A stretch of DNA of 64,000 bases from Indolivaga alginatilytica (lineage in GTDB: Bacteria > Bacteroidota > Bacteroidia > Bacteroidales > Dysgonomonadaceae), in contig NZ_QICL01000001.1 in NCBI RefSeq assembly GCF_003201355.1, positions 186,001 through 250,000 of the forward strand. Direction: 5' to 3'. Under the pieces are notes generated by a model. It saw only the letters and a program-made list of their open reading frames with translations. It searched no databases and was not told the DNA's origin. The position numbers and the translations under genes were made by a program. Shown here in pieces: positions 21,690-43,952 of the stretch. Numbering within the stretch: the stretch's first letter is position 1; each line of letters opens with the position of its first letter.

Positions 21690-23759
21690 TTACTTTGTAA
21701 TAACACCCAATTCTGCTACAATATATTCTTTTGCAGTAGCTGTAGTTTGCAAAGGTTCAAGCTTTATAAATTTTGCCTCTACTGCTTTGTCAAACAGTAC
21801 ATCTTGCTTAATCGGATTGTTCTTTATGTTGTTGAAAGCTGCATTACTTTGCACCTTAGTCCAAACTTTGCCATCTAGGCTAGTATACAAATTGTACTTA
21901 TAAACATTATTAGCAGTTTCGCTTTTCAACGGATCGTATGAAAAACCTTTCAGAATAAGTTTATCACCCAAATCTACTACAACAGCTTCTTTGTCTTTAA
22001 TACTCACATACGAAGATGGATTACCGTCTACTATGCGAGCTGCATTATCAGTTGTTGGAGAAACAACAGACCACTTAGCTGGAGCAATATCAAATACTAC
22101 TGATACTACTTCGCTTTTAGTCTTACCTTCTTCTATAGTAGCAATAGCTTTTACCGAACCGCCTTCAACCAGTTTAAATGCGTCTTTATATACCTTAGAA
22201 GACGTTGTTGGCTCAGTGCCATCTGTTGTGTAATAAATTACAGGCTCGGGAGTAGCACACTTGATAGAAACAAGACCGTCTTCACTTCTTTGAATAACAG
22301 GAGTCGACAGCTTCTCAGGAGCAGCAAACAAACCTATCTTATTTAAAACAGGACATGCCAACGAATTTTGAATATTGATTCTCAACTTCTGTGTAGTAAT
22401 AGTAGGGAATCTCAATATACGTTTGTAACCGACCGTTGTAGCAGTGGTAATTTCTTCCCATTTATCACCATTGAGATACTCTACATTGAATTTCTGAATA
22501 CGTTGCCCTAACGGTATATATTCTTGGATCACCAATCGATTGAACGTTTTAGCCTGTCCCAAGTCTATTTCCAGCGAAGCAGTCATATCCTTGTCGTCGG
22601 TCGCCCAATAAGTATCGTAATTATCGTCCAGCAAATTAGCTGCTGCAAATTTAGAAGAATTACCTCTGGTTTTAGATGCTGATATTTTCGCACCTTTAGA
22701 TAAATCGTTACTGAATACCGATTCTACAGTCTGACGAAATTCCATCAAACGGGTAGAGTCATTCGGATGAATACGTCCTCTTCTATCAGGTGGTACATTC
22801 AATAACAGATTAGAATTTCTACCTACCGAAGTATAATAAATATCCATCAACTGATCTACACTCTTCACCCTATCGTTGGTAGAAGGGCTAAAGAACCATC
22901 CCGGACGAATAGATACATCCGTTTCGGCAGGAACCCAAGCAGCACCATGTATATTACCTATATTAAGCGTATCGGTAGGAGGTGCAGCCTTGCCCGGTCC
23001 GAATCCTTCGACATTCAATCTCGACCAGTTGGTTTCGCCCGCAACACCGCGTTCGTTACCCATCCATCGACAACCCGGACCTATATCGCTAAAGATAATA
23101 GCCTGAGGTTGGTTTTTATATACTACATCGTGAAACATTTTCCAGTCATATACTTGTTTCTTTCCGCCTTCATGTTCACCATTAGCACCATCAAACCATT
23201 GCTCGAATATAGGACCATAGTTCGATAAAACTTCGGTCAGTGTATTAGCAAATATCTGATTATATTCGGGAGTTCCGTATGCAGGGTGATTTTGATCCCA
23301 AGGTGAAAGATATACGCCAAATTTCAAGCCATACTCTTTACAAGCCTCCGATAACTCTTTCAGCAAATCGCCTTTACCATCTTTCCATAAGCTTTCGCGA
23401 ACGGTATGTGTACTGTATTCACTTGGCCATAAACAAAAACCATCGTGATGCTTAGCCGTCAAGATGATGGCTTTCATTCCCGCAGCTTTAGCGGTTGCAG
23501 CCCACTGGCGACAATCTACATCTGTCGGATTAAATACTTTGGGATCTTCTTTACCATTCCCCCACTCTACATCCGTAAATGTATTGGGTCCGAAATGAAT
23601 AAACATATAGTATTCCATTTTTTGCCATTCCATCTGATCGGCAGAAGGTAATACTCCATAAGGTTTAGGTGGATCGTCATTGGTACAGGATGAAAACATC
23701 CCACTCAATAGCAGACTTAACGAAAGCAGACCTGCCTGACAAGTTTTTGTAAGTTTCAT
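21690..23759 (-). CDS. GH29 alpha-L-fucosidase lipoprotein with F5/8 (CBM32-like) domain
   Basis: 689 residues. The lipoprotein signal ends LLSGMFSSCTNDD. Residues about 35-360 are a GH29 TIM barrel (WQKMEYYMFIHFGPNTFTD near the start). The nucleophile Asp is in EQWFDGANGEHEGG. An F5/8 type C-like sandwich follows (DDNYDTYWATDDKDMTASLEIDLG, in parts), then a chitobiase-type beta domain (PVIYYTTDGTEPTTSS) and a second F5/8-like module. It removes terminal fucose from glycans at the cell surface or in the periplasm. No SusC/SusD pair is adjacent, so it is not in a classic polysaccharide utilisation locus. Confidence 0.92.
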   Translation of the reverse strand: MKLTKTCQAGLLSLSLLLSGMFSSCTNDDPPKPYGVLPSADQMEWQKMEYYMFIHFGPNTFTDVEWGNGKEDPKVFNPTDVDCRQWAATAKAAGMKAIILTAKHHDGFCLWPSEYSTHTVRESLWKDGKGDLLKELSEACKEYGLKFGVYLSPWDQNHPAYGTPEYNQIFANTLTEVLSNYGPIFEQWFDGANGEHEGGKKQVYDWKMFHDVVYKNQPQAIIFSDIGPGCRWMGNERGVAGETNWSRLNVEGFGPGKAAPPTDTLNIGNIHGAAWVPAETDVSIRPGWFFSPSTNDRVKSVDQLMDIYYTSVGRNSNLLLNVPPDRRGRIHPNDSTRLMEFRQTVESVFSNDLSKGAKISASKTRGNSSKFAAANLLDDNYDTYWATDDKDMTASLEIDLGQAKTFNRLVIQEYIPLGQRIQKFNVEYLNGDKWEEITTATTVGYKRILRFPTITTQKLRINIQNSLACPVLNKIGLFAAPEKLSTPVIQRSEDGLVSIKCATPEPVIYYTTDGTEPTTSSKVYKDAFKLVEGGSVKAIATIEEGKTKSEVVSVVFDIAPAKWSVVSPTTDNAARIVDGNPSSYVSIKDKEAVVVDLGDKLILKGFSYDPLKSETANNVYKYNLYTSLDGKVWTKVQSNAAFNNIKNNPIKQDVLFDKAVEAKFIKLEPLQTTATAKEYIVAELGVITK

Positions 23760-34753: not shown

Positions 34754-35905
34754 CTAAATAACCTCTCTCTTCAGTTCTATTCTAAACGTAGTACCTACGC
34801 CGATTTCCGAACTCTTCACATAAATTTTTCCTTTGTGATAATCCTCTATGATTCTTTTCGCTAAAGACAAGCCCAATCCCCATCCCCGTTCTTTCGTCGT
34901 AAAACCGGGCGAAAATACACTTTTAAACATAGCCTTAGGCAATCCTTTTCCCGAGTCTGTTATATCAATACAAACCATCCCGTTTTTTTGAGACAGTTTA
35001 AAAACAATACGCCCTTGTCCCTCCATTGCATCCACCGCATTTTTGGTAAGATTCTCGATGACCCAGCTAAACAGCGAAGTACTAATCTTAGCATATAGAG
35101 GGTCACCCGGAATATCGAATTCAAATTTAACCTTCTTAGAAATACGTTTCTCCAAATAAGCAACCGATTGCATCATCTCCTCTCCCACTTCCCGGGTCTC
35201 AGGCGAGGGAGTAGACCCAATCTTAGAGAATCGATCGGCTACCACCTGCAACCGCATGACATCCTTCTCCATTTCATTCAATGTTGACACATCAGAAGTC
35301 TTGGTTTTCAGATATTCCACCCAAGCCAGCATAGAAGATATAGGAGTCCCAAGCTGATGAGCCGTTTCTTTGGATAACCCAACCCACAATTTATTCTGCT
35401 CGGCATTCTTCGTACTCAATAATGCCAGAAACGAAACACAAATAAAAAACGTCATCACCCCAATCTGGATAAAAGGATAATATTGCAGACGTTTTAATGT
35501 TGATGAATCGCCATAATAAACATATTGCTTAAAATTAGGAGATTCAATAACAATAGGAATATTCGCTTTTTTTAAATCAATCACCTGATCGGCCAAATAC
35601 TTCAAACTGTCATCCGAAGGAATATCTAAATTAGCATGCATCAAAACATTATTATCCTCATCACACAGTATGGCAGGAATCGTTTTATTGCTGGACAGAA
35701 TCTTCAAGGTAAGATCCAATTCGTCAACCCCATTGTTATCTGCTGCCCTCTGGAGGGCATCCGCCCACAACTCCATTTTTTGTCTTTCGTCTTTAGCCAT
35801 GTCACCGGCCATTTGATTCGATATAATAAGAAAACTAATAGCAATGGCTATTGCTATAGCAATAAATATATATTTAGCTAATACTTTTTTATCGAAAGAT
35901 CTCAT
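34754..35905 (-). CDS. Sensor histidine kinase
   Basis: 383 residues. Two membrane helices (YIFIAIAIAIAISFLIIS near residue 12 and FIQIGVMTFFICVSFLALLS near 147) enclose a periplasmic sensor of about 110 residues. The H-box is ETAHQLGTPISSMLAWVEYLK, with His at about residue 184; the N-box is WVIENLTKNAVDAMEG; G-boxes are DSGKGLPK and GWGLGLSLAKRIIEDYHKG. No response regulator is adjacent, so it is an orphan in this window. The HQLGTP form of the H-box is characteristic of Bacteroidota kinases. Confidence 0.92.
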   Translation of the reverse strand: MRSFDKKVLAKYIFIAIAIAIAISFLIISNQMAGDMAKDERQKMELWADALQRAADNNGVDELDLTLKILSSNKTIPAILCDEDNNVLMHANLDIPSDDSLKYLADQVIDLKKANIPIVIESPNFKQYVYYGDSSTLKRLQYYPFIQIGVMTFFICVSFLALLSTKNAEQNKLWVGLSKETAHQLGTPISSMLAWVEYLKTKTSDVSTLNEMEKDVMRLQVVADRFSKIGSTPSPETREVGEEMMQSVAYLEKRISKKVKFEFDIPGDPLYAKISTSLFSWVIENLTKNAVDAMEGQGRIVFKLSQKNGMVCIDITDSGKGLPKAMFKSVFSPGFTTKERGWGLGLSLAKRIIEDYHKGKIYVKSSEIGVGTTFRIELKREVI

Positions 35906-36030: not shown

Positions 36031-36061
36031 TTGGATTTAATCTCAGGATAACATATCTTTG
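36031..36061 (+). promoter_or_regulatory. Promoter of small RNA copy 1
   Basis: TTGG at 36031 and TATCTTTG at 36054, spaced by 19 bases, match the Bacteroidota -33/-7 promoter. The same elements with the same spacing precede the other two RNA copies. Confidence 0.8.
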
Positions 36062-36066
36062 AACTG

Positions 36067-36139
36067 TGTTTTTTCATGGTATTAGATTTTAAGGTTAACA
36101 ATGAAGATTGGTTGTCGGGATGACAACCTTTCCTTTTTT
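36067..36139 (+). ncRNA. Small RNA copy 1 (about 73 nt, intrinsic terminator)
   Basis: The RNA runs from just after the -7 box to a terminator hairpin. GGTTGTCGGGATGACAACC (36110-36128) is a 7-bp stem with a GGGAT loop, followed by TTTCCTTTTTT. The unpaired 5' part includes TTTTTTCATGGTATTAG and AAGGTTAACA. It is nearly identical to the copies at 36334 and 40216 and has no real ORF. This is a self-contained small-RNA gene. Its target and family are unknown; a possible pairing with ATGAAAAAA start codons is discussed in the findings. Confidence 0.75.
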
Positions 36140-36297
36140 AGATACACAATGACCAACACTATTGTATGTTATGTCATCATTCCCTTCAAAAAAGAAACAA
36201 TATCCCCGCATAAAGTCCTAGTAAATATTAAAATCACGCAACAAACAAGTAACAATATCACATTTTTGTTAAATATATTGATTTAACATTAAAAGGA

Positions 36298-36328
36298 TTG
36301 GATATAATCTCAAAATCGCATATCTTTG
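36298..36328 (+). promoter_or_regulatory. Promoter of small RNA copy 2
   Basis: TTGG at 36298 and TATCTTTG at 36321, spaced by 19 bases. Confidence 0.8.
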
Positions 36329-36333
36329 AAGTG

Positions 36334-36407
36334 TGTTTTTTCATGGTATTAGATTTTAAGGTTAACAATGAAGATTGGTTGTCGGGATGACAACCTTTCC
36401 TTTTTTT
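36334..36407 (+). ncRNA. Small RNA copy 2 (about 74 nt)
   Basis: Same module as copy 1, about 267 bases downstream in the same orientation. The transcript region differs by only one or two bases (GAAGTGTG against GAACTGTG near the 5' end). The terminator hairpin lies at 36377-36395 with a T-tract to 36407. Conservation of promoter, transcript and terminator while the flanks differ indicates selection on the RNA. Confidence 0.75.
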
Positions 36408-36636
36408 AGATACACAAGTCAGTTATTATTTTATTTTTTTCTATTCTATTAATTTCATAACTGCAGAATAAAATTGCCATGCAAGTGCACTCCTAAAAAA
36501 GATAGTATCCTTATAATTCTTTCGACGCATTCTCTAAATGGTAAATTCCAGAGACATTTGAACTATTAACACGACCTCTTTTGAGTCCTGATTACTAAAG
36601 TATCGGAAAAATGAAGCATTATTTAAAAATAATATA

Positions 36637-36644
36637 TACATTTG
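36637..36644 (+). promoter_or_regulatory. -7 box of leader L1
   Basis: TACATTTG. It and the following AATAACTCTTTAC block align with the -7 region of leader L2 (47625-47632, minus strand), which has TATATTTG and AATAACTCTTTAC. Confidence 0.6.
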
Positions 36645-36672
36645 CTCATGTAATAACTCTTTACATCACAAC

Positions 36673-37085
<413 letters not shown>

Positions 37086-37117
37086 AATAAACACCTAACA
37101 TAATTTAATTAACGACA

Positions 37118-37762
37118 ATGAAAAAAAATATTCTACTATTAGCCCTTACAGGCTTTATCGGTGCAGCACAGGCACAAGTCGGTATAAATACCGAAACTCC
37201 CAGAACCACTCTGCATGTCAATGCATCCAGTACAGCTGCCGGCACTGCCGAAGGAATTATGGCGCCGACACTCAGCAGGGCACAGCTTATCACCAAGGAT
37301 GTCCAGTACGGGATAAACCAGCGGGGAGCATTTATTTATATAACAGCTATCGACGGTACAGCAACCGCTAAAACCTCCAAGGTGACTGTTATCGGTTATT
37401 ACTACTTCGACGGTAGCCTCTGGCAGCCTTTCGACTATACGCCCGAAACGCTTTATCTGCCCTCTTTCAACCTGCCCATGACAGCTGTGGCAAACAATGT
37501 GACATACGATTTATACAATCAGGTCTATAAAAAGCAATTCACAAAGGCAGGCAATACCACTTGGGTAAGCAGCAATGCCTCGCTTACGCAGATACCCGAA
37601 GTATATGCCGCCAATCAGTTGGATTTTGTAGTCACCTACTACGATGCTTCTGTAATAACCATCAATAGCATATCGGCAGCAGGAGTTTTAAACTACAATG
37701 TGCTAAATGTGAATCCTACCGACAAATCGTTTATTAATATTGTTCTTGTCATAAAAAAATAA
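37118..37762 (+). CDS. Secreted GINT-family protein, type B
   Basis: 214 residues with signal peptide ending IGAAQAQ. The mature start VGINTETPRTTLHVNASS is shared with the type A family, but the body differs: GIMAPTLSRAQLITKDVQYG, then the GYYYFDGSLWQPF block found only in type B members (here, 39393 and 48100). The C-terminus INIVLVIKK is a beta strand. No Cys or sorting domain visible. It is followed 6 bases later by the propeller/PKD gene. The surface role is inferred. A (A)8 run follows its ATG. Confidence 0.85.
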   Translation: MKKNILLLALTGFIGAAQAQVGINTETPRTTLHVNASSTAAGTAEGIMAPTLSRAQLITKDVQYGINQRGAFIYITAIDGTATAKTSKVTVIGYYYFDGSLWQPFDYTPETLYLPSFNLPMTAVANNVTYDLYNQVYKKQFTKAGNTTWVSSNASLTQIPEVYAANQLDFVVTYYDASVITINSISAAGVLNYNVLNVNPTDKSFINIVLVIKK

Positions 37763-37768
37763 TAGAAT

Positions 37769-39358
37769 ATGCTTACTAAAAAAACAGTCATAGCCCTGTT
37801 GCTTTTAGCGGTTACTTTTAGTGTAACCGCCCAGAAGGAACAGAACAACTGGTTCTTCGGCTACAATGCAGGACTCACATGGAATACAACCCGCAGTTTT
37901 ACAGCGACCGGTATGCTCGGTGCTGCCAACACTACATTAACGGGCATACCTACCGTAGTGACAGACTCCAAGATGACAACTTACGAGGGATGTTTTTCCT
38001 TATCGGATGCCAATGGAAATTTATTGTTTTTTTCGGATGGAATAACTATCTGGGATAAAACAAAGGGACCAATGCTCGATGGAGGTACTTTGACGGGCAA
38101 TCCGTCCTCTGCGCAGTCGGGGGTGATACTCCCCTATCCCGGTAGCCTCACACGATATGTCGCTATAACTTTGGGATCACGCGATGCTAACAACCTGTCT
38201 TATACAATAGTCAACATGAGTCTTGGTACCGCAGGTCGCGGTGCTGTTGAAGTTAGCCCCATCAACAACAAAAACCAAGCCTTTACGGGACAATTGGGAA
38301 CACTGGGCGAAAGCGTAACAGCAGTAAGGCACTCAAACAAAAACGATTTCTGGGTTATTGCAGTAGGAAGGGCAGCCACCGCCACTACCACCGCCTTCAA
38401 TGTATGGAAAATAACAGAGGCGGCAGGAATCCAAAAAGCCCGCCACAGTGTAGCATCTGTTACACATACTACCACCGCAGTAGTTGGAGCAGACGGATAT
38501 ATAAAATTCACACAGGACGGGAAACGGTTTGTATGGATAAATTTCAATACACTGGCTTTCGTCTACGGGGATTTTAACCCTACTACCGGAATTATCAGTA
38601 ATCTGAAAGTACGTACAGGGGCAGGTCCAACTAACGGGCGTGGATATGGAATAGAGTTTTCGCCCAGCGGTAAATACTTATACCTGACATATGCTCCGGG
38701 GTCTACAAACCAGACCGGTGTAAACACAAGTATAGACATTTACGATACAGATGCCTTATGGGCAGCAAGCAACCCGAATACTGTCAACTATGTACGACGT
38801 TTTCTTCTCCCGACGGGCACTTCCGACGGTAAATCCGATTTATTTGCGGGAATACAATTGGGACCCGACAACAGAATGTATATATCGGCTTTTTTCACCT
38901 CTAATATATTTATTCTGCCCAACCCTGATACTCCTACAACAACCAGTCTCTACAAACTGACTAACGTATTGGGAGCAGGTGCTACTTCATATTGGGGTCT
39001 TCCTTCATTTGCAGCTCCGTGGTTTAAAATGCTGATTACTTTGCCCGAAAAAGCAGAATGCTGTTCGGAATATACGACCAATTTTCCTCTGACTATCGAA
39101 AACGGTATGGGATTCAGTGCAGTCACCCGAATAGTTATCGATTTTGGGGATGGTGCCCCCAACTCAACAACAACGATCAACAGCCCCACACTAGGCACAG
39201 CTATATATTCCTATAAATATAAAAAACCCGGCACATACACTATTACCGTTACCGCATACAATGCCTCCTCAGGTGTGGAGCTAACTCAAACGGCATCAGT
39301 AAAAGTGAATAGTTGTGCCCTAAAAGTAAATAAACATATCAGAAGTATAAACAACTGA
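37769..39358 (+). CDS. Large secreted beta-propeller/PKD-domain protein
   Basis: 529 residues with signal peptide ending FSVTAQ. The N-terminal block NNWFFGYNAGLTWN and GCFSLSDANGNLLFFSDGITIWD are typical of a Bacteroidota secreted family with a propeller-like repeat region (VAITLGSRDANNLSYTIVN, RHSNKNDFWVIAVG, FSPSGKYLYLTYAP). A PKD domain near the C-terminus has IDFGDGAPNS and YKYKKPGTYTITVTAYN. Relatives often end with a T9SS type B sorting domain. Here it ends VNSCALKVNKHIRSINN with no such domain. The large companion at 49275 ends in a similar motif, so it could be an alternative signal. It sits between two type B genes. Confidence 0.8.
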   Translation: MLTKKTVIALLLLAVTFSVTAQKEQNNWFFGYNAGLTWNTTRSFTATGMLGAANTTLTGIPTVVTDSKMTTYEGCFSLSDANGNLLFFSDGITIWDKTKGPMLDGGTLTGNPSSAQSGVILPYPGSLTRYVAITLGSRDANNLSYTIVNMSLGTAGRGAVEVSPINNKNQAFTGQLGTLGESVTAVRHSNKNDFWVIAVGRAATATTTAFNVWKITEAAGIQKARHSVASVTHTTTAVVGADGYIKFTQDGKRFVWINFNTLAFVYGDFNPTTGIISNLKVRTGAGPTNGRGYGIEFSPSGKYLYLTYAPGSTNQTGVNTSIDIYDTDALWAASNPNTVNYVRRFLLPTGTSDGKSDLFAGIQLGPDNRMYISAFFTSNIFILPNPDTPTTTSLYKLTNVLGAGATSYWGLPSFAAPWFKMLITLPEKAECCSEYTTNFPLTIENGMGFSAVTRIVIDFGDGAPNSTTTINSPTLGTAIYSYKYKKPGTYTITVTAYNASSGVELTQTASVKVNSCALKVNKHIRSINN

Positions 39359-39392
39359 CAAGTATCAAGCTCTCATTCTAACTTATACTGAA

Positions 39393-40055
39393 ATGAAACA
39401 TATTATATTTAAAACACTTAGCCTCGCATTGATATGGGCGTGTTGTATAACACTACAGGCACAAGCACAAGTAGGCATTATAACTACCGCCCCCAGATCT
39501 ACGCTGGATGTTACAGCACAACCGCTGGACGGCGGTATTACCGACGGCATTATAGCCCCTTTGCTCACACGGGCACAACTCATAGCTAAAGATGCTCAGT
39601 ATGGAACAAATCAGACCGATGCGATAGTATATATAACGACTATCGACGGAGTGGTTACAACCAAAACAGCTAAAGTCACTACAACCGGATATTATTTTTT
39701 TGACGGGAGTATATGGCAGAACATAGACCGCGCCGGGTCATATTTCTATTTACCTCCGTTTATACTTCCTACAACATCGGTGGGTGCAGGCAAAACTTTC
39801 GACCTTTATACAGGTGCATTCAGCAAACAGTTTAACCTGTCGGGAAATACACTCTATAAAACAAGCAACTCCATATTGCAGCAAATACCCTCAGCCCGGT
39901 ATACAGCAAACCAACTGGATTATGTGGTAACGTATTATGATACCGATATTATCAAAATCAACAGCATTTCTACAACAGGAATCATAAATTATGATGTACT
40001 GAGTACTGTATACGGACCGGCAGCGTTTATTAATGTGGTCGTAATTACAAAATAA
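39393..40055 (+). CDS. Secreted GINT-family protein, type B
   Basis: 220 residues. Signal peptide ends TLQAQAQ, followed by VGIITTAPRSTLDVTAQ (the usual Asn of GINT is replaced by Ile). GIIAPLLTRAQLIAKDAQYGTNQ and GYYFFDGSIWQ are the shared type B blocks. It ends with the strand INVVVITK. It follows the propeller gene by 34 bases and ends about 120 bases before small RNA copy 3. Sequence identity with 37118 is strongest in the first 120 residues. Confidence 0.85.
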   Translation: MKHIIFKTLSLALIWACCITLQAQAQVGIITTAPRSTLDVTAQPLDGGITDGIIAPLLTRAQLIAKDAQYGTNQTDAIVYITTIDGVVTTKTAKVTTTGYYFFDGSIWQNIDRAGSYFYLPPFILPTTSVGAGKTFDLYTGAFSKQFNLSGNTLYKTSNSILQQIPSARYTANQLDYVVTYYDTDIIKINSISTTGIINYDVLSTVYGPAAFINVVVITK

Positions 40056-40179
40056 ATAGTTAAAAGACTGTGTGGATGGGCTAGTACCACTCCTAAATTT
40101 AAATAAAATCTAAAATTACCCTATTAACAAGTCTCAACATTATATTTCTGTTAAAAACAGCCATTTAAAATTAAAAAAA

Positions 40180-40210
40180 TTGGTTTCAAATCTAAAACAG
40201 GATATCTTTG
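40180..40210 (+). promoter_or_regulatory. Promoter of small RNA copy 3
   Basis: TTGG at 40180 and TATCTTTG at 40203, spaced by 19 bases as in the other copies. Confidence 0.8.
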
Positions 40211-40215
40211 AACTG

Positions 40216-40283
40216 TGTTTTTCATGGTATTAGATTTTAAGGTTAACAATGAAGATTGGTTGTCGGGATGACAACCTTTTTTT
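40216..40283 (+). ncRNA. Small RNA copy 3 (about 68 nt)
   Basis: Same module as 36067 and 36334, with GGTTGTCGGGATGACAACC at 40258-40276 and a T-tract directly after. One T fewer in the TTTTTCATGG stretch and a shorter run after the hairpin are the only clear changes. It lies downstream of the L1/type B cassette, so that cassette is flanked by three RNA genes. Confidence 0.75.
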
Positions 40284-40400
40284 GCATACATAAGCACCTG
40301 TTTTTTTTGATATAGTACCTATTAAAGAAAATAAGACTACAGATTATACGATGCTTTTATCTATTAAAATATAGAAATAGATAAAATGGATTATTTCTCC

Positions 40401-40408
40401 TATTTTTG
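40401..40408 (+). promoter_or_regulatory. -7 box before the TonB-like gene
   Basis: TATTTTTG, about 124 bases before the start at 40532. Confidence 0.45.
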
Positions 40409-40531
40409 TGATTAAGTAGATTCTGAAAAATAAACCAATTCGGGATGTTCAGAAGAAAAATATCTAAAGCATTAAATACTTCGGAAGCAGCCATTATAAA
40501 ATCAAATGCAACAATAATAAAATTAATTAAG

Positions 40532-40969
40532 ATGAGACTACTTTGTCTATTTACTTTTTCACTAATCTGTTTTTATTCTTTTGGACAGATACCCGTAATG
40601 CAACAAAAAGAAGTTACCCAAGAAGATAAAGATAGCTTAGTCTTTACCTTATTCAACAGAGATAAGGCTGAATATATAGACGGCTATACAGAATTACACA
40701 AGTTTATCAGGGAAAATCTTCAATACCCCCCAAAAGCATTGCAAAAAAAACTGGAAACAAAAATAGCTATACATTTTATTGTGGCAAAAAACGGAACTTT
40801 ATCCGACTATAAATGCTACGAGCAAGAGTATCCCGACGCAGGTTTTAAAGAGGAGGCTATTAGAATTATAGAACTGACTAGCGGAAGATGGAATCCCGGT
40901 ACTTATGAAGGGCAACCCGTACGCTCAAGAGAAAGTGTTTACATTGATTTCAAATTGACTGATAAATAA
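40532..40969 (+). CDS. Exported TonB C-terminal-like protein
   Basis: 145 residues from ATG at 40532; an upstream in-frame ATG at 40445 adds a non-signal N-terminus and is disfavoured. The signal peptide is MRLLCLFTFSLICFYSFGQ. The rest is a TonB_C-type domain (LHKFIRENLQYPPKALQKK, KIAIHFIVAKNGTLSDYKC, WNPGTYEGQPVRSRESVYIDFKL). It lacks the usual transmembrane anchor and Pro-rich spacer, so it is not a standard TonB. In Bacteroidota such single-domain forms are common and uncharacterised. Confidence 0.78.
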   Translation: MRLLCLFTFSLICFYSFGQIPVMQQKEVTQEDKDSLVFTLFNRDKAEYIDGYTELHKFIRENLQYPPKALQKKLETKIAIHFIVAKNGTLSDYKCYEQEYPDAGFKEEAIRIIELTSGRWNPGTYEGQPVRSRESVYIDFKLTDK

Positions 40970-41211
40970 ATAAAAACCTGAAAAGTTACTTTAACATTTC
41001 AGGGAACCAATCTAATACAAGAATATAAAATGCAATTATATCCAATAACCATAACACATTCGTCTCTTTAGTACTTCAACCATATATACACTAAAAGCAC
41101 CAGTTTCAAGAAAGATACTGATAAAGAAAATCTTAGAAGAACTATTTCTCAAGAAACTTGTTTAATACTTATTATAAAACACATAAGTATTTTACAAATC
41201 AAGATTGCATT

Positions 41212-41795: not shown

Positions 41796-42206
41796 ATGAA
41801 TATTTCGCACATCGAACATCTTGGTATTGCTGTAAAAAGTATCGAAGACAGTCTTCCTTACTACGAAGGCGTTTTAGGCTTAAAATGCTACAACATAGAA
41901 GTTGTAGAAGATCAAAAAGTAAAAACTGCTTTCTTCAAAGTCGGTCAGACTAAAATAGAACTACTTGAGCCTACAAGCCCAGACAGTACTATCGCAAAAT
42001 TCATCGAGAAAAAAGGAGAAGGTATCCACCACATTGCATTTTCAGTAGACAGCGTAGCTGCATCATTGGCTGAAGCAGAAAGTAAAGGTGTACAATTGAT
42101 AGACAAAGCTCCTCGTGCAGGTGCAGAAGGTCTTAACATTGCATTCCTTCACCCAAAATCAACTTGTAGTGTATTAACGGAGTTCTGCGAACACCCAAGC
42201 AAATAA
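41796..42206 (+). CDS. mce: Methylmalonyl-CoA epimerase
   Basis: 136 residues of the VOC (glyoxalase/bleomycin-resistance) fold. HIEHLGIAVKSIEDSLPYYEGVLGLK carries the first metal His. EKKGEGIHHIAFSVDSV carries the second, and the C-terminal STCSVLTEFCEHP the Glu. It interconverts the R and S forms of methylmalonyl-CoA in propionate production from succinate. It is the first gene of the cluster with mmdA-like and biotin-carrier genes, the usual arrangement in Bacteroidales. Confidence 0.95.
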   Translation: MNISHIEHLGIAVKSIEDSLPYYEGVLGLKCYNIEVVEDQKVKTAFFKVGQTKIELLEPTSPDSTIAKFIEKKGEGIHHIAFSVDSVAASLAEAESKGVQLIDKAPRAGAEGLNIAFLHPKSTCSVLTEFCEHPSK

Positions 42207-42336
42207 GATATACATTAGAAAGAGGCTTTACGATGTAAGGTCTTTTTTGCGTTATCCGATATAAGATAATACAAAAAACAATGTACTATTTTAAGCTTAA
42301 ACAGCTTATGCTGTTATGCTTGACAATGCACAAGAA

Positions 42337-42350
42337 AAGGTCTTAGACCT
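42337..42350. repeat. Junction palindrome, copy 7
   Basis: AAGGTCTTAGACCT, between mce and the carboxyltransferase gene and 43 bases before its start. Confidence 0.65.
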
Positions 42351-42392
42351 GACAAAAATCAGTATTAAATTTAAGAATCAAAATATAAAAAC

Positions 42393-43952
42393 ATGAGCCA
42401 ACTTGAAAAAGTAAAAGAGCTTATTGCACTTCGAGAAAAAGCACGCCTAGGTGGTGGTGAAAAAAGAATCGAAGCTCAACACGCAAAAGGAAAATACACT
42501 GCTCGCGAGCGTATCGCTATTGTACTTGACGAAGGAAGTTTCGAAGAGTTTGATATGTTTGTAGAACACCGTTGTACAAACTTTGGAATGGAGAAAACAA
42601 AATTCCTTGGTGACGGTGTAGTAACCGGATGTGGAACAATTGACGGACGTCTGGTTTACATCTTTGCACAAGACTTTACTGTAATAGCAGGTTCGTTGTC
42701 TGAAACATTGGCAATGAAAATCTGTAAAGTAATGGATATGGCAATGAAAGTGGGTGCGCCTTGTATTGGTATCAACGATTCGGGTGGTGCTCGTATTCAG
42801 GAAGGTATCAACGCATTAGCAGGTTATGCTGAGATTTTCCAACGCAATATCCTATCATCCGGGGTAATTCCTCAAATATCAGGAATTTTCGGACCATGTG
42901 CCGGAGGTGCTGTATATTCTCCAGCTCTTACCGATTTCAATATCATGACAGAAGGTACTTCTTATATGTTCCTTACAGGACCTAAAGTGGTAAAAACTGT
43001 TACCGGTGAAGACGTTACTCAAGAAGAACTAGGTGGTGCAAGCGTACACACAACAAAATCGGGTGTTGCTCACTTCTCAGTAGAAAACGAAGATGATGGT
43101 CTATCATTGATCCGTCACCTGATGAGTTTCCTTCCTTCTAATAACAGAGAAGAAACTCCTCGCAAGGAATGTACTGATCCAATCTCAAGAATGGATGACT
43201 TATTGAACGACATTATCCCTGACAATCCGAACAAAGCATACGATATGTATGAAGTAATCGGTTCATTGATCGATAGTGGAGAGTTCCTTGAAGTACATGC
43301 AGCATATGCTAAAAATATAATTATCGGTTTTGCTCGTTTCAACGGACAATCGGTGGGTATCGTAGCCAACCAGCCTAAATACATGGCCGGTGTGCTTGAT
43401 ATCAATGCATCTCGTAAAGCAGCACGTTTTGTGCGTTTCTGCGATGCTTTCAATATTCCTATCGTAACTTTAGTTGACGTACCCGGATTCCTTCCCGGAA
43501 CTGCACAAGAATATGGCGGTGTAATTGTACACGGTGCTAAACTTCTTTATGCTTACGGCGAAGCTACTGTACCTAAAGTAACAGTTACCCTACGTAAATC
43601 TTACGGAGGTTCTCATATCGTAATGAGTTGTAAACAACTTCGTGGCGATATCAACTACGCATGGCCAAGTGCAGAAATTGCAGTTATGGGTGCTGATGGT
43701 GCTGTGGAAGTATTGTATGCAAAAGAAATTAAGGCTGATCCGGATCCTGTAAAACAAGCGGAAGCTTATGCAGCGAAAAAAGATGAGTATAACAAATTGT
43801 TCTGTAATCCTTACAATGCTGCTCGTTACGGTTATATCGACGATGTAATCGAGCCCCGTAATACACGTTTCCGTGTAATCCGTGCATTGGAGCAATTGAG
43901 AACTAAACATCAGGTAAATCCAGCTAAAAAGCACGATAATTTACCTCTATAA
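42393..43952 (+). CDS. mmdA: Methylmalonyl-CoA decarboxylase/propionyl-CoA carboxylase carboxyltransferase subunit
   Basis: 519 residues of the biotin-dependent carboxyltransferase fold, two tandem crotonase-like halves. [17 protein letters not shown]-type oxyanion and CoA-binding blocks are present (here [16 protein letters not shown] and [20 protein letters not shown]). The second half has [25 protein letters not shown] and the C-terminal pattern. It transfers carboxyl between biotin and propionyl-CoA/methylmalonyl-CoA. In Bacteroidales the gene serves the succinate-to-propionate route. In the Na+-pumping decarboxylase the partner is an OadB-like subunit, which is not in this cluster. Confidence 0.94.

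Follow-up and report, generated by a model that had tools for sequence, protein, structure and literature searches.

FopS has been described as a "family of paralogous sRNAs" of Bacteroides thetaiotaomicron, published in 2025 in Nat Commun (PMC11697453). According to that report, B. thetaiotaomicron has 14 FopS RNAs, whose seed, R1', base-pairs to SusC mRNAs at their start region and so prevents translation; RbpB, an RRM protein, works against this effect, and bile salts raise FopS levels. The same authors leave open the transcriptional regulator that drives FopS and the reason for the many copies. Another B. thetaiotaomicron sRNA, GibS (PMC7366714), has its R1 seed in common with FopS, as stated in PMC11697453, but differs from it in its PM2 promoter, its second seed (R2), and its presence as a single gene. 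MasB, also an sRNA of B. thetaiotaomicron, is activated by the regulator Cur, a link that has experimental support (PMC10994844); it is a different RNA and is likened to FopS at the level of the regulator only.

We analyzed a 64,000-nucleotide stretch of the Indolivaga alginatilytica genome (contig NZ_QICL01000001.1, positions 186,001 to 250,000), here called the window. Its host belongs to the Dysgonomonadaceae, whereas the conservation described in PMC11697453 concerns the Bacteroidaceae. An Rfam cmscan of the whole window at the gathering threshold gave three matches, all to RF04319 (BTncRNA_FopS), each covering the full 71 positions with both ends of the model matched and, against a gathering score of 56, scoring far beyond chance (Table 1). 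The likeness to paralogous small-RNA families of Bacteroides, which the first-pass annotation had noted without committing itself to an identity, was thus borne out for all three copies. The Rfam scan that it had proposed detected these three FopS matches only, with no cold-shock leader or other housekeeping element and no further family above the gathering threshold in the window. A housekeeping RNA or a riboswitch was dropped as a reading, since RF04319 alone reached the Rfam threshold within the window. Judged by sequence, the three copies are ordinary members of FopS, known in their identity and new to the family as members.

Table 1. Coordinates of the FopS genes and associated features in the window.
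Feature	Position	Strand	Details
Alpha-L-fucosidase-like gene	21693..23759	-	Pfam Alpha_L_fucos; predicted FopS duplex of -26.2 kcal/mol
Sensor histidine kinase, left synteny anchor (outside the RNA)	34754..35905	-	Pfam HATPase_c; tblastn synteny
FopS copy 1 promoter	36031..36061	+	TTGG 36031-36034, N19, TATCTTTG 36054-36061; sigma-ABfr type
FopS copy 1	36066..36142	+	Rfam RF04319, 72.9 bits; invariant 5' seed, then hairpin 36110-36128 and T-run
Terminator arms GGTTGTC/GACAACC, copy 1	36110-36116/36122-36128	+	
FopS copy 2 promoter	36298..36328	+	TTGG 36298-36301, N19, TATCTTTG 36321-36328
FopS copy 2	36333..36410	+	Rfam RF04319, 73.5 bits
Terminator arms GGTTGTC/GACAACC, copy 2	36377-36383/36389-36395	+	
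FopS copy 3 promoter	40180..40210	+	TTGG 40180-40183, N19, TATCTTTG 40203-40210
FopS copy 3	40215..40286	+	Rfam RF04319, 78.6 bits
Terminator arms GGTTGTC/GACAACC, copy 3	40258-40264/40270-40276	+	
Right synteny anchor: genes for a 136-aa protein and a carboxyl transferase	41796..43952	+	Pfam Carboxyl_trans for 42393-43952

Direct reading of the sequence reproduced every motif and coordinate of the TTGG-N19-TATCTTTG promoters and the GGTTGTC/GACAACC terminators that had been annotated for two copies, together with their spacing of 267 bases; the third copy, placed at 40180 to 40283, was likewise found there with the same promoter, body, and terminator. All three window copies have the canonical TAnnTTTG, which is the -7 consensus of sigma-ABfr promoters (PMC7366714). 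The RNA starts used here are presumed ones, based on the Rfam model and on the family as published; sequence cannot show transcription. Copies 1 and 2 agree at all 63 positions that run from the presumed start through the terminator hairpin, and the sole difference of copy 3 in the body is a first T-run shorter by one T. In ungapped comparison, the flanks showed 58 to 60% identity over the 60 bases lying 40 to 100 upstream and 35 to 37% over the 60 bases downstream, and the body is, by these figures, much more conserved than its flanks. The corresponding claim of the first-pass annotation, that the transcript is far more conserved than its surroundings, therefore held for body versus flanks, but the conserved block is not confined to the transcript and extends into the promoter and some upstream DNA: 126-nt units that include these parts have 91% and 67% identity to copy 1.

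Comparison of 56 distinct FopS RNAs from several families, the window's included, gave 26 invariant alignment columns, nearly all of them in positions 4 to 29, i.e., in the seed, where variation was limited to one G/A position and a T indel (the R1' bases in this check follow the text description in PMC11697453). In the terminator stem, 4 of the 7 pairs have changed on both sides, and 96.9% of the cells are paired, versus 93.4% in shuffles, none of 500 of which reached as high a value; this count is conservative, as three rows with replacement stems are out of register in the alignment. Such replacement stems, e.g., GGAGTC/GACTCC and GGAGTAC/GTACTCC, stand in place of GGTTGTC/GACAACC in other families. 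The folds of the window copies are no more stable than those of shuffled sequences (z of -0.5, -0.5, and -1.0); in the minimum-energy fold, the terminator is formed and the 5' stretch with the seed is partly paired. A divergent FopS-like RNA, whose seed region has CATAATAGTATTAGATTT and whose terminator differs, was also seen in eight genomes, one copy being found per genome (L058, L059, L061, L062, L063, L064, L065, and L066), with Rfam scores of 50 to 58 bits, around the cut-off.

These data bear on three other explanations. A dispersed DNA repeat, that is, a small mobile or palindromic element mimicking an RNA gene, would fit the many near-identical copies, some of them on phage (3) and plasmid (10) records, and the frequent coincidence of contig ends with FopS copies. 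We nevertheless consider it very unlikely given the promoter and terminator on each window copy, the flanks that differ between copies, the compensatory changes in the stem, and the complementarity of the seed to SusC start regions. The phage records with FopS-like sequences are MT836368, MT836359, and PQ571285 (Bacteroides phage BX-TP2), beside ten plasmid records. A GibS-type RNA, from the related GlcNAc-induced sRNA group characterized by the PM2 promoter and the second seed R2, would explain the seed shared with FopS, but the promoters in the window are of the canonical TAnnTTTG type, and the copies match the FopS model at both ends and are many, whereas the single gibS gene described in B. 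thetaiotaomicron has a PM2 promoter; this origin is hardly credible. The third explanation, a small protein gene, builds on the seed ATG, from which 15 codons can be read in the window copies (MVLDFKVNNEDWLSG). Among 102 distinct FopS copies, collected with 75 bases upstream by way of Rfam matches (the exact core was required, which left out divergent copies), the exact peptide is present in 7, but the seed ATG is missing in 33, and the T-run indel alters the frame and the peptide in others. Since the frame is not kept across the 102 copies, and the family's authors excluded sORFs for FopS in B. thetaiotaomicron (PMC11697453), the small protein reading was dropped as extremely improbable.

Predicted targets were sought first among the SusC genes, for which the genome has at least 56 model matches (56 of 106 candidates scored). 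Duplexes formed by FopS positions 1 to 40 averaged -18.9 kcal/mol over the start regions of 53 SusC genes (the farthest in-frame ATG served as the start codon; a piece of an interrupted gene and two matches below the cut-off were set aside) versus -12.6 kcal/mol with 155 other genes (161 less six ORFs of >850 aa). The Mann-Whitney p value for this difference is 4e-17, with SusC paralogues not independent of one another and accessibility ignored. None of 100 dinucleotide-shuffled RNAs matched FopS in the SusC mean or in the difference between SusC and other genes, and the predicted duplex spans the A of the start codon in all 53 SusC genes. A whole-genome search for the seed complement, allowing up to 3 mismatches, gave 14 matches, compared with 2 for a reversed and 2 for a permuted pattern. 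Eight of the 14 are the FopS genes themselves, and no SusC gene is among the other six. In five of these six, the ATG lies exactly at the start of an ORF, encoding, by Pfam, a GH88 hydrolase, a heparinase II/III-like protein, a LacI-type regulator, a short-chain dehydrogenase, and an MFS transporter, most of them genes for sugar utilization; the sixth, on contig C54, is off the start codon. The duplexes of the five start-codon matches beat 299 to 300 of 300 shuffles, and that of the LacI-type gene (-34.6 kcal/mol) was the strongest among those energy-tested against shuffles. Within the window, the start of the fucosidase-like gene (Table 1), selected as the best, has the best predicted FopS pairing among the 155 non-SusC genes sampled, and none of 300 shuffles was as low.

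As a whole, the observations are, with high confidence, best explained by three FopS sRNA genes of about 70 nt, each with its own promoter and terminator, whose seed would block the translation of SusC and other sugar-use genes. From its sigma-ABfr-type promoter to its Rho-independent terminator, each gene would give an RNA of about 70 nt, the invariant 5' end of which (GTGTTTTTCATGGTATTAGATTT...) would serve as a seed for pairing with SusC and other sugar-use mRNAs at their start codon and immediately upstream of it, so that translation initiation would be blocked. An RRM protein (RbpB in Bacteroides) would probably relieve this block, and the genome has genes for two RRM_1 proteins. Family membership, promoter and terminator, seed invariance, compensatory stem changes, and specific complementarity to SusC starts were computed here; translational repression and its antagonism by RbpB, which others demonstrated in B. 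thetaiotaomicron alone, would by analogy also operate in the host of the window. The likeness to B. thetaiotaomicron FopS comprises the 71-position model match, the R1/R1' seed, the sigma-ABfr promoter, the terminator hairpin, the multicopy state, and SusC start regions as predicted targets. FopS most likely switches off sugar-uptake genes.

The genome carries at least eight FopS copies above the cut-off, i.e., at least five beyond the window; this is a lower bound, with 150 of 973 first-look candidates scored. Among 31 relatives, 23 had a match at E 0.001 and 21 a match above the cut-off, and FopS was above the cut-off in all 19 searched genomes of the window's own family. An order-wide draw of 148 genomes gave FopS matches at E 0.001 in 35 and above the cut-off in 28, extending FopS to many further genera.

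The window copies form a tandem array at a histidine-kinase/carboxyl-transferase locus. By tblastn, the histidine kinase, which is 92% identical to a Dysgonomonas sp. HGC4 protein, flanks the array on its left side in each of the three relatives compared (G001, G004, and G005), and the carboxyl-transferase-side genes lie beside the arrays of G001 and G005. The syntenic locus, between kinase and carboxyl transferase in both of these relatives, holds three copies 243 to 254 bases apart in G001 and two in G005; in G004, a single copy lies next to the kinase. The 4,681 bases at 36437 to 41117 of the window have 183 bases in their place in G005. The simplest reading of this arrangement is that copy 3 was parted from copy 2 by genes inserted at 36.8 to 40.1 kb into a single tandem array, the alternative being that copy 3 arose by a separate duplication. 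Copy 3 is probably part of one array with copies 1 and 2. The tandem copies most likely provide dosage. Clustered or tandem copies were found elsewhere as well, e.g., in G003:C2, G056:C1, and G164:C6.

Some features of the array region are recorded here in their own right. The ORFs at 36831 to 40055, between copies 2 and 3, are missing from the same place in G005; they include a PKD-domain protein (37769 to 39358), and the ORFs at 37118 to 37762 and 39393 to 40055 have 3' ends that are alike. An (AG)17 microsatellite (36756 to 36789) lies just upstream of them. The promoters of copies 1 and 2 contain a GATT...AATC inverted repeat that resembled an operator; this reading was dropped, as the repeat is not conserved in the orthologs from G001 and G005.

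Beyond the window, the FopS promoters are not uniform. TAnnTTTG is present in 92 of the 102 copies, and 6 of the 10 copies without it have AACTTT-N13-16-GTTTA/GTTAA in common, three of them in this genome (G000:C28, C8, and C15; L002, L003, and L005) and three in G001 (L029 twice and L035). These promoters resemble those of ECF sigma factors (GAACTT / CGTT), and they are possibly of the ECF type. A strict ECF-like pattern occurs at two places in the genome, both of them FopS, and a wider regulon was not found with it. For noncanonical promoters, TGTT at -10 is described in the BtModulome paper. In this genome, the canonical -7 box is missing in 3 of 8 FopS copies and a Cur-type palindrome is present in 1 of 8, whereas in B. 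thetaiotaomicron the 14 copies are described as having canonical promoters, with no strong subdiversification (PMC11697453). Copies elsewhere in the genome with different promoters most likely separate input signals.

The palindrome, ATGTT-N4-AACAT in its perfect form, was found in 27 of the 102 FopS promoters (200 shuffled sets had a mean of 0.09 and a maximum of 2), always over the -33 box, with its center 27.5 to 31.5 bases upstream of the presumed start. The 27 copies come from 17 genomes of six families, many of them being orthologous and not independent. The palindrome agrees with the motif wwwTATGTTnTAnAACATAwww, predicted for the carbohydrate master regulator BT4338, later named Cur (Ravcheev et al., PMC3878776). 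The palindrome of the Cur regulon, TATGTTnTAnAACATA, was sought at the three window promoters, and none of them has a perfect ATGTT-N4-AACAT; one other FopS copy of the same genome, G000:C19:23082, has the palindrome at 23047 to 23063 (L001, L151). When ATGTTnTAnAACAT-N4-34-TAnnTTTG was searched in 61 relatives, there were 126 matches among those listed, versus 2 for the reversed control. The gap between palindrome and TAnnTTTG was two-peaked among the matches listed, with 51 at 8 to 12 and 48 at 33 to 34, the latter peak sitting at the edge of the allowed range. The 51 short-gap matches among those listed comprise 33 FopS copies (17 known before plus 16), 17 non-FopS sites, and one left apart. 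In the genome of the window, a stricter Cur-type pattern gave 4 matches, versus 2 for the reversed control.

Two further occurrences of the palindrome precede genes that were named by eye. One stricter match besides FopS lies upstream of a hexosaminidase-like gene, and in several genomes the short-gap palindrome also precedes a small lipoprotein-like gene (MKKVLLF.. or similar; L347, L351, L353, L356, L359, L365, L370, and L373).

The short gap would place a CRP-type protein on the stretch that RNA polymerase has to occupy, and, going by CRP in general, repression would be favored. Since the palindrome covers the -33 box, the FopS copies that carry it would be repressed by Cur when sugars run out, which would free transporter mRNAs. 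In E. coli, the sRNA Spot 42, itself under CRP, is a case of a catabolite regulator placed over an sRNA that represses sugar-uptake genes, and we infer by analogy that Cur may act on FopS as CRP does on Spot 42; the two are likened by working mode, not by sequence, FopS being multicopy and having Cur as its candidate regulator. Counting against repression are the sRNAs BTnc140, BTnc195, and BTnc364 of B. thetaiotaomicron, which lie near Cur sites and rise in carbon limitation (PMC10294740), and the activation of MasB by Cur (PMC10994844). These three names are absent from the main text of PMC11697453 and of PMC10861873; if one of them were FopS, Cur activation would be favored over repression. 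The genome of the window encodes two HTH_Crp_2 proteins above the family cut-off, with a matching palindrome at neither locus, so that neither was assigned as the Cur orthologue.

In the open-licence literature, PMC11697453 was the only paper found on the FopS family in Bacteroides, no paper was found on Spot 42 with Bacteroides and Cur, and, by title, none was found on Dysgonomonas sRNA. The main text of PMC11697453 has no occurrence of Cur, Crp, Spot 42, or BT4338. What may be new is the split promoters and the Cur-type operator in part of the FopS family, outside the window. We tentatively propose, as a possibility still somewhat doubtful, that near-identical FopS RNAs stand behind plain sigma-ABfr, Cur-site sigma-ABfr, or ECF-like promoters, so that sugar status and envelope stress would meet on SusC translation, and that repression by Cur would form a coherent feed-forward loop evolved apart from CRP/Spot 42. 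The work places a published sRNA family of gut Bacteroides, including its SusC targeting, in a Dysgonomonadaceae genome; the promoter classes offer a testable reason for the many FopS copies, and the palindrome gives a named candidate regulator of FopS, Cur.
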